Positions 14,062 through 16,679 of a stretch of 53,230 nucleotides of DNA are shown here, one piece after another. This DNA is from Planctomycetota bacterium (GTDB lineage Bacteria; Planctomycetota; MHYJ01; JACPRB01), in the NCBI GenBank assembly GCA_035574235.1, contig DATLZA010000079.1, positions 1 through 53,230 on the forward strand, written 5' to 3'. The number at the start of each line of letters is the position of its first letter. Within the stretch, counting starts at the first letter, position 1. The notes under the pieces are model-generated. The model searched no databases. It was not told the origin of the DNA and worked only from the letters and a program-made list of their open reading frames with translations. The translations under genes and the position numbers were made by a program.

Positions 14062-14316
14062 ATGAAACTCCTGGCCGCGACGCTCCTGGCGGCGGCTCTT
14101 TCCGCCTGCGCGGCTTCCGATCCCGATCCGCGCCCCGTGGCGATCGACCCGGTGTGCCTGTGCAACGGAGACCTGGGCTGCATCCGCGTCCGCGTGGACG
14201 AGCGCACGCCGCGGGCGGAATACGCGGGCCGGACGTATTATTTCTGCGCCGAGTCATGCCGCGAAGCCTTCCTCAAGGATCCGGCCCGTTACACGCGCCC
14301 GGAGCCGGGACGCTGA
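14062..14316 (+). CDS. YHS-domain lipoprotein
   Basis: This 84-aa protein begins with a lipoprotein signal (MKLLAATLLAAALSAC) with lipobox LSAC and cysteine 16. The remainder is a YHS/TRASH-like metal-binding domain: IDPVC near the front, then YAGRTYYFCAESCREAFLKDPARY. It would sit on the outer membrane or in the periplasm and bind a metal ion. It is the all-cysteine counterpart of the selenocysteine-like YHS domain encoded about 0.8 kb away on the other strand. ATG 14062 was chosen over an upstream in-frame ATG at 14026 because it starts the signal peptide. Confidence 0.8.
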   Translation: MKLLAATLLAAALSACAASDPDPRPVAIDPVCLCNGDLGCIRVRVDERTPRAEYAGRTYYFCAESCREAFLKDPARYTRPEPGR

Positions 14317-15062
14317 GGGCCCTTCCGGCCGGACCGGACGATCTGGACCTCTTCGACTCGCTCCGCGAGCGCCGCTGTCCCCCCGGCCGCTTCATCGGCG
14401 ACGGCTGGCGGGTGGTCTCCAAGATGATCGAGCGCGGGGCCGCGGAACGCATCCTTTGTACGCCGGAGTGGCTCGAACGCCTGGCGCCGCTCCCCGGCGT
14501 CGAAATCCGGACGGCTCCGAAGGAAACGCTCGATCGGCTCGTCGGTTTCCGGCTGCATCAGGGAATCATGGCTCTCGGGCGGATTCCGCCAGCTCCGCCG
14601 CGCGTGGAGGGAACGCTTCTGGTGGCCCTCGACGGACTTTCGAACGCGGAAAACGTGGGGGCGATTCTGCGAACCTGCGCGGCCTTCGGGGCGGACGGCG
14701 TTCTCGTGGGTCCCACCACGGCCTCCCCGTGGCTTCGCCGCGCCGTGCGGGTGTCGATGGCCGCGCCGCTGCAAGTGCCGGTTCACTTCGTGCCGGATCT
14801 TCCGGAGGCGCTGCGTCCTCTGAACGCCTGGGCGGCCGACCTGCGCGGCGAGCGCCGGTCCTATACGGACGTCGATTACACCGCTCCGGTGTGTCTGGTC
14901 CTCGGCGGCGAGGACAAGGGAGTGACGCCGCCGGTCCGGGCGGCCTGCCGCGGAGCGATCGGGATTCCGATGGCGCCGGGATGGGACTGTCTGAACGTGG
15001 CGGCCTGCGCGGCGGTTCTGCTGGCGGAAGCGCGCCGCCAGCGGGCGGCGCGCGTTACTTGA
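14256..15062 (+). CDS. SpoU/TrmH-family RNA 2'-O-methyltransferase
   Basis: This is a SPOUT-fold RNA ribose methyltransferase. The three family motifs are NAENVGAILRTCAAFGADGVLV, LVLGGEDKGV and the knot end LNVAACAAVLLAEARR. An N-terminal region of about 110 residues is probably the substrate-binding domain (LFDSLRERR...). The start is uncertain. ATG 14256 gives 268 aa but overlaps the YHS gene by 61 bp. The next conventional start, GTG 14412, removes much of the N-terminal domain. The 3' end overlaps the convergent YHS selenoprotein gene by 8 bp. The target RNA cannot be named. Confidence 0.8.
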   Translation: MPRSLPQGSGPLHAPGAGTLRALPAGPDDLDLFDSLRERRCPPGRFIGDGWRVVSKMIERGAAERILCTPEWLERLAPLPGVEIRTAPKETLDRLVGFRLHQGIMALGRIPPAPPRVEGTLLVALDGLSNAENVGAILRTCAAFGADGVLVGPTTASPWLRRAVRVSMAAPLQVPVHFVPDLPEALRPLNAWAADLRGERRSYTDVDYTAPVCLVLGGEDKGVTPPVRAACRGAIGIPMAPGWDCLNVAACAAVLLAEARRQRAARVT

Positions 15063-15717
15063 TCCAGCCTTCCTTGCGGGCGGCCTCGAGCGTGGCTTCC
15101 GGCGACGCCAGAAACTCTTTCCGGCAGGAATTTCAGCAGACGTAGTAGGTCTTGCCCTGGTAGCTCACCTCGATATCCCCCGTGCCGCCGGTGACGACGC
15201 ACTTGGGGCGCTCCGCGCGCACGAAGGGGACGCCCTTCTTCGTGAACTGATAGGAGAAAACGGGACGCCACGCCTTGGCGCCCGCCTCGCGGCGCTCCAG
15301 GGTGCCGAGGAACCGGTTGTCCCGCAGGAACTGCAAGGTCAGCCGCTCGCGGCCGCCGGAGGAGTCCTGGGACTCCTCGAGCTTCAGCTCCCGCCCCGCC
15401 CAGGACCCTTCGAAGACGGCGGGCGCCCCCGAGACGCGCACCGTCTCCAGGCGGTACACCTTTCGCGTCAGGTCGTAACCGAGGACGCCTTCCTTGAAGA
15501 CGCGGCTTCCCTTGGCCGAAAACCGGAGGGCATAAAGATCCCCTTCGATGCGATACTCCCAGGCCTGCTCCTCTTCCCAGGACTGATCCCGCCGGATTTC
15601 GTCCGTGACCAGGACCTTCCATTCGCCCACGAGAAACTGCACGGGGCGCATGGCTTCCTTGGTCGTGCGGGGCTCCCCCTGGAGCGCCAGCAGCGCCAGC
15701 GCGAAGGCGGCCTTCAT
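15055..15717 (-). CDS. Predicted selenoprotein: secreted DUF1579-like barrel with C-terminal YHS domain (in-frame TGA)
   Basis: Read through one TGA (15133-15135), this gene encodes 220 aa. Residues 1-15 are a signal peptide. Residues about 25-165 look like a small beta-barrel (FLVGEWKVLV...; DUF1579/nitrobindin-like, weak call). The C-terminus has PKCVVTGG and YQGKTYYVC-U195-NSCRKEFLASPE, a YHS/TRASH-like metal-binding end in which homologous domains often carry Cys at or next to the U position. Stopping at the TGA would cut the domain in the middle of its metal motif. After the TGA the frame continues 25 codons to a TAA. A hairpin at 15106-15126 has SECIS features. The gene lies 35 bp downstream of the other TGA-containing gene. 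Confidence 0.75.
15106..15126 (-). promoter_or_regulatory. Predicted bacterial SECIS hairpin of the YHS gene
   Basis: In the mRNA the stem is formed by TGCCGGAAA and TTTCTGGCG, nine pairs including two G-U wobbles, closing a three-base loop GAG. The loop begins 16 nt after the TGA. Known bacterial SECIS hairpins lie just after the UGA, have a short loop with G in its first two positions, and place that loop about 16-37 nt away. Pairing was done by eye. Confidence 0.65.
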
Positions 15718-15752: not shown

Positions 15753-16679
15753 TCACTTGCTCTCTTTGAGCTTCTTGAGGGTTTCTTCCTTCTCCTTGAA
15801 CCACTTTTGCGCCTGGGGCAGCTCGCCGAACTTCGCCTTGAGAGCCTTGAAACCCGCCTCGAACGCGACGGCGTCCTTTTTCTCCTCCGCGCAATCCATG
15901 AGGAGGATCCAGTAGGCCTGCACGGCGTCGTCGGACGTCGGAGCGGCTTTTCCGGCCTTGTACATCTCGTAGAACTTCTTCCCCGCCTGCTCGGCGCCCT
16001 CGTCGTTTTGAATCGCACGCACCGTTTCAAGGATCGTGGCGTTGGTCAAGGCGACCTCGAACCGGGTTTTCTGCTCCGCGGAGAGCGTGCCGAGCCCCCC
16101 GACCTCCCGTTCGGCGTCGCCCACCTTCGCGTGGCCCAGGTCGAGCCGGGCGATCAGGTAGTCGAGCTTCGCCCCGGGGTCGCCCGTCTCCGCCTTCTTG
16201 CGAAGCTCGAGGAACGCCCGGACCTTCTTGCCCGTCTCGCGGAATCCGTCGGCATCCCGCGCGCCCTCGTGCTTGGCCAGGACGTTCCCCTCGGCGTCCA
16301 GGAAGACGAGGTACGGGAAGCCCATTCCCCCCTTCTCCATGAGAAGGTTCTGGTGCTTGTCCCCGGGAACGCGGGACATGATGTTGCAGTAGAGAACGTA
16401 ATCCTTGGAGAACTCCACGAACGCGTCCGTCAGGAGGGCGCCGCCCTCCAAAGCGTTGCAGGGGGGTCAAGGCGCGTAAGAGCGCGTGAAGTAGGCGAAG
16501 ATGACCCGTCCCGTCTTGCGGCTCTCCTCGAGCGCCTTGTCGTAGTCCGTGATCCAGGCCGCCTTGGAAAGGAAGGGGGACTTGAGCTTCTGATCCCGTT
16601 TCTCCTCGAGCGACTGCTGGGCCGCCGCGGCGGACCCGAGCGCCAGAAGCGCCAGCGCTCCGCGGAAAAGATGTCTCAC
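15753..16679 (-). CDS. Predicted selenoprotein: secreted thioredoxin-like protein with U-P-P-C active site (in-frame TGA)
   Basis: Read through one TGA (16467-16469), this gene encodes 308 aa. A signal peptide (residues 1-20, ending AAAA) is followed by a thioredoxin-like domain. GRVIFAYFTRSYAP-U71-PP-C74 replaces the first Cys of a CPPC redox motif, then come VEFSKDYVLYCNIM and the thioredoxin strand GFPYLVFLDAEGNVLAKHEG. The rest is helical, perhaps TPR-like. GTG 16677-16679 is supported by AAGGAG seven bases upstream. The segment after the TGA has no convincing start of its own: its first option, TTG 16451, begins inside the fold. A hairpin at 16433-16449 has SECIS features. The gene is 27 bp after the glycosyltransferase-kinase gene. 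Reduction of periplasmic disulfides or peroxides is an inference. Confidence 0.78.
16433..16449 (-). promoter_or_regulatory. Predicted bacterial SECIS hairpin of the thioredoxin-like gene
   Basis: In the mRNA, GGAGGGC and GCCCTCC form seven perfect Watson-Crick pairs around a three-base loop GGC. The first loop G lies 25 nt after the TGA, inside the window expected for bacterial SECIS elements. The hairpin is within coding sequence, as is normal for these elements. Pairing was done by eye. Confidence 0.65.

Follow-up and report, generated by a model that had tools for sequence, protein, structure and literature searches.

The 53,230-nucleotide stretch of planctomycete DNA analysed here (the window; genome label G000, a fragmented draft assembly of 203 contigs) very probably encodes a selenoprotein in which selenocysteine (Sec) lies among the invariant cysteines of a YHS/TRASH-type motif, an in-frame UGA being read as Sec (Table 1). 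We base this assignment on the recurrence of this UGA in a homolog of 51% identity, on the cysteine found at that codon in all 48 other aligned homologs, on the conservation of the sequence downstream, and on a complete Sec machinery. It is also supported by the adjoining gene, a member of a Sec family whose SECIS helix covaries, and by the occurrence of only two read-through-like TGAs in the 53-kb window.

The frame given in the preliminary description of this DNA was recovered with every coordinate as claimed. It consists of 194 codons ending in C194, the TGA, 25 sense codons, and a TAA, and with the TGA written as U the motif reads K-T-Y-Y-V-C-U-N-S-C-R-K-E-F-L-A-S-P-E. When every in-frame TGA of the window was scanned, coding-like composition on both sides was seen at only two, 15133-15135 and 16467-16469.

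Table 1. Predicted features of the YHS gene and of its upstream neighbour in the window
Feature	Position	Strand	Details
Predicted Sec-containing YHS protein gene	15055..15717	(-)	220 residues if UGA is decoded as Sec; ATG 15717, stop TAA 15055-15057; basis: translation, homologs
In-frame UGA, codon 195, proposed Sec	15133..15135	(-)	UGA also in G001; Cys in 48/48 other homologs
Conserved coding stretch past UGA, 25 codons	15058..15132	(-)	17/25 identical to G001; all 50 rows have F202 and P206
YHS/TRASH motif region	15097..15201	(-)	C173 15199-15201, C194 15136-15138, U195, C198 15124-15126; Pfam YHS and invariant columns
N-terminal part of YHS gene: short signal-like hydrophobic stretch and nitrobindin/lipocalin-like beta-barrel	15202..15717	(-)	AlphaFold2, Foldseek
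Candidate SECIS hairpin A, favoured	15095..15115	(-)	9 bp, loop GUC, 26 nt past UGA, -12.2 kcal/mol
Candidate SECIS hairpin B (preliminary description)	15106..15126	(-)	loop GAG, 15 nt past UGA; RNAfold 8 pairs, -10.0 kcal/mol
Thioredoxin-like gene, exported-looking	15753..16679	(-)	GTG start 16679; 35 nt upstream of YHS gene, same strand
In-frame UGA of thioredoxin-like gene, U-P-P-C	16467..16469	(-)	homologs with one in-frame TGA; same codon in loci read
SECIS-like hairpin of thioredoxin-like gene	16433..16449	(-)	GGAGGGC-GGC-GCCCUCC, 24 nt past UGA; equivalent helix covaries in family

Conservation at codon 195 and downstream

The homolog that shares the UGA was found by a search of relatives in a Planctomycetota assembly (G001, isolate nzgw515; a draft of about 660 contigs with low contig coverage, 2.6x) from another genus within the window organism's family. 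Its gene has a single in-frame TGA, at the identical codon (YYVC-U-NTCRKEFLAEPAKSLENAKKEGFIK), and the two proteins are identical at 17 of the 25 residues past the TGA and at 94 of the 193 ahead of it. In the window, the YHS gene and a convergent SpoU-family rRNA methyltransferase gene (14154-15062) overlap by eight bases at their 3' ends (15055-15062); the SpoU gene of G001 is likewise convergent and adjoins the YHS gene. Since the overlap takes in only the last five bases of the post-TGA stretch, it cannot explain the conservation there.

A profile search of Planctomycetota placed the family that combines a barrel with a YHS domain in 44 of 392 genomes of the phylum. Columns C173, C194, C198, F202, and P206 are invariant in an alignment of 50 family members, and position 195 is Cys in each of the 48 rows besides G000 and G001. 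These rows are the homologs continuing past the TGA with Cys at 195 that the preliminary description had suggested looking for, and no truncated homolog, such as one ending at Y-Y-V-C, which it had named as evidence against a Sec codon, was seen among the aligned family members. Two members of the Sec form are known, which make up one clade on a long branch in a quick tree, and a single change at position 195, presumably from Cys to Sec, is the simplest history. Most genomes of family code f32 (G045, G153, G271, and others) carry two Cys-form paralogs, with YVCC and WVCC.

Scanned for the peptide pattern of the single YHS protein, 84,980 species genomes yielded no relative, and with the alignment of the two Sec proteins the sole match was the G001 contig itself. 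A degenerate DNA search of the 392 phylum genomes for [YF][YF][VF]C-TGA-xx-C-x3-F returned only G000 and G001 together with one low-complexity, AT-rich match in G047; the reversed control gave 3 matches.

Candidate SECIS hairpins

The nine-pair, GAG-loop hairpin of the preliminary description exists (15106-15126, hairpin B), but it is not the sole SECIS candidate, as a GUC-loop hairpin (hairpin A) competes with it. The two are mutually exclusive, and RNAfold prefers A in the window sequence. Bacterial SECIS elements are constrained to a loop of 3-9 nt with a G in the first two loop positions, a spacing of 16-37 nt, and an energy of -7.5 kcal/mol or lower (PMC13188914). In a bulge-free SECIS scan, the window gene passes via the hairpin at 26 nt and the G001 gene fails, as do all but 3 of 52 Cys homologs. 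The G001 counterparts of B and A reach -8.9 kcal/mol (loop GGAG) and -8.6 kcal/mol (loop GGA), respectively, each with one bulge. We tentatively favour hairpin A as the putative SECIS because its 26-nt spacing is close to the SECIS geometry of the family of the thioredoxin-like neighbour. In an Rfam scan, every match in the region fell far below its gathering score.

Selenocysteine machinery

The window genome carries a tRNA-Sec with anticodon UCA, SelA (568 bits), SelB (308 bits, or 341 with a second piece, against a cut-off of 242), and two SelD genes (G000:C165:30105-31013, L037, and G000:C10:1530-2444, L036), one of them with an in-frame TGA (GG-U-AGKL) and the other with Cys (GG-C-AAKL). 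A SelA fragment was found at a contig edge in G001. SelA scores over the cut-off in some genomes with the Cys form of the YHS protein (G271, G085, G077, G065, G352, G134, and G147) and was not found in others (e.g., G045, G153, G293, and G230). Since Cys forms occur in genomes both with and without SelA, the Sec trait alone does not force Sec at position 195.

The upstream thioredoxin-like gene

The gene upstream of the YHS gene is, as judged from its sequence, a second selenoprotein gene. Its product matches Pfam Thioredoxin_7 and has its TGA in the context RSYAP-U-PPC. The family has no NCBIfam model of its own, the nearest being DsbH, a weak match far below the cut-off (40.8 bits against 190). 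Of 392 Planctomycetota genomes, 104 carry the family; almost every strong match has exactly one in-frame TGA, which falls at the same codon in all loci read except L119, where it is Cys. In the SECIS scan 30 of 33 sequences of the family pass, and in most of them the loop has three bases and lies 24-25 nt past the UGA. Across 18 sequences the helix is paired in 93.8% of cells, with five pairs changed on both sides, far more than in slid controls.

The shortness of the gap between the two genes (35 nt) suggests that they are co-transcribed. In G001, the contig of the Sec YHS gene also bears, on the same strand, the end of a thioredoxin-like gene, and a divergent HEAT-repeat-like gene separates the two; no thioredoxin-like neighbour was seen in the examined flanks of Cys homologs. 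Some genomes carry two or three tandem Sec thioredoxin-like genes (L103 and L125, in G009 and G382, and G009:C29).

Domain architecture and the cysteine site

The TGA lies inside the YHS/TRASH motif, as the preliminary description had it: the Pfam YHS alignment (residues 181-207, E 1.3e-5, 25.5 bits, below the gathering score of 30.3) spans it, and the surrounding cysteines are invariant. All 50 family members match Pfam YHS at E<=0.01 (best 2.2e-9), and none matches DUF1579 at that threshold. An assignment to DUF1579 was therefore dropped. The N-terminal part models as a nitrobindin/lipocalin-like barrel. In the AlphaFold2 model (mean pLDDT 93) the barrel takes up about residues 31-160 and the YHS part follows; Foldseek likens the barrel to OlmO (TM-score by target 0.81) and to nitrobindin (about 0.68). 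The short hydrophobic N-terminus suggests that the protein is probably exported.

C173, C194, U195, and C198 are the only Cys/Sec residues of the window protein, and U195 lies immediately ahead of helix 196-204 in the model. TRASH domains space their three cysteines as CX19-22CX3C; C173, C194, and C198 fit such a pattern as CX20CX3C, and U195 and C198 also form a UxxC. In this spacing the protein resembles other YHS/TRASH domains (PF04945 and PF08394; the copper-responsive adenylyl cyclase of Mycobacterium phlei; ribosomal L24e) (PMC4626032). These usually have an extra ligand three residues before the first cysteine (in the M. phlei cyclase, D178 ahead of C181; PMC4626032), whereas in our 50-row alignment the equivalent position, 170, varies, so that the Cys/Asp of the first TRASH ligand is not conserved, and an invariant extra Cys/Sec follows C194. 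The Planctomycetota Cys homologs combine barrel and YHS domain in the same way and keep the invariant C..CC-x-x-C set but differ in having Cys at 195 and G at 197, where the Sec forms have S/T.

Relation to catalogued selenoproteins

The preliminary description knew of no Sec form of the YHS family. One is in fact catalogued, NF041384 (YHS_seleno_dom), a predicted protein of unassigned function that likewise carries Sec in a YHS-type domain, with the motif GxU (PMC2398784, PMC9312934, PMC13188914). By its sequence, nevertheless, the window protein, with CUxxC, is of a different family and Sec motif. No NCBIfam family matches the Sec YHS protein of G000 or G001 at E<=1, and the NF041384 model gave no match to the window gene in a search of its own genome. 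Different Sec positions are treated as distinct subfamilies in a review of 119 selenoprotein families, none of which combines the barrel and YHS architecture with CUxxC (PMC13188914). MbdU (NF045648, a metal-binding double selenoprotein) and other CU-motif selenoproteins, some of them metal-linked, similarly place Sec beside Cys (PMC13188914), but no NCBIfam model among them matches the window protein at E<=1. A description of the protein was not found in the open-licence literature searched, which is weak evidence of absence.

Proposed mechanism and alternative readings

SelB and Sec-tRNA(UCA) would decode the UGA as Sec, aided by a stem-loop directly downstream, to give a product of 220 residues with the predicted centre C173...C194-U195-N-S-C198, borne by a probably exported protein that is modelled as a nitrobindin/lipocalin-like barrel followed by a YHS/TRASH domain. 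Among the other ways in which the UGA could be understood, termination as its main function is improbable. The main product would then be a protein of 194 residues without the complete motif, and Sec read-through would be minor or selenium-dependent. Bacterial Sec insertion does compete with termination, and at SelB, SpoU, and other genes of the genome UGA serves as an ordinary stop; against this, the residues past the UGA are conserved at least as well as those ahead of it, and no truncated homolog was seen among those aligned. Those same ordinary stops led us to reject a general recoding of UGA, and a changed code, with UGA standing for another amino acid (Trp, Cys, or Gly), is very improbable at this gene. 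The frame would be open whichever residue the UGA encodes, but the Sec machinery is complete and the replaced residue is always Cys. A sequencing error or a dying pseudogene, which the fragmented state of both drafts might bring to mind, was also rejected, its probability being close to nil: two genomes with proteins only 51% identical share the TGA at this codon, and conserved sequence follows it. The reading error that the preliminary description had allowed for falls on the same ground.

The preliminary description took the site for a Sec metal-binding or redox centre. Sec itself is strongly supported, and the metal binding is conjectural, a redox UxxC being equally allowed. Our tentative preference, held at not quite an even chance, is that C173, C194, U195, and C198 form a soft-metal thiolate/selenolate site that also cycles as a C-U or UxxC redox pair, is re-reduced by the thioredoxin-like neighbour, and serves in the cell envelope to handle copper or mercury or to protect thiols. 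A purely redox Sec195, acting without metal as a selenol oxidoreductase through U195-x-x-C198 at the helix start or through a C194-U195 selenenylsulfide, is somewhat less likely than not. Among the catalogued Sec redox motifs UxxC is the most frequent (PMC13188914), U195 directly precedes a helix in the model, and a thioredoxin-like selenoprotein is encoded next door, but C173 and the TRASH spacing are also invariant and would be needless for a UxxC site alone. It is rather unlikely that Sec195 is a direct metal ligand, replacing the missing first TRASH ligand as the fourth in a soft-metal selenolate site of an exported barrel protein, a site that the Sec thioredoxin-like reductase next door would maintain. 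In the proposed mechanism, U195 would act in the centre as fourth ligand or as nucleophile, and the adjacent Sec thioredoxin-like protein may re-reduce it.

Implications

The window gene would add a Sec/Cys pair to those available for comparison, with Sec placed among the metal-ligand cysteines of a YHS/TRASH motif, outside the thioredoxin fold, which would allow metal affinity and redox behaviour to be set side by side for the Sec and Cys versions of this one site. Selenoproteins in planctomycetes are already known as such (PMC4807772). The phylum nevertheless appears to be a source of uncatalogued ones, the thioredoxin-like family occurring in about a quarter of its sampled genomes and nearly always with an in-frame UGA, and this family may be a more consequential finding than the YHS protein. 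Gene callers that take UGA as a stop would truncate both the YHS and the thioredoxin-like proteins.
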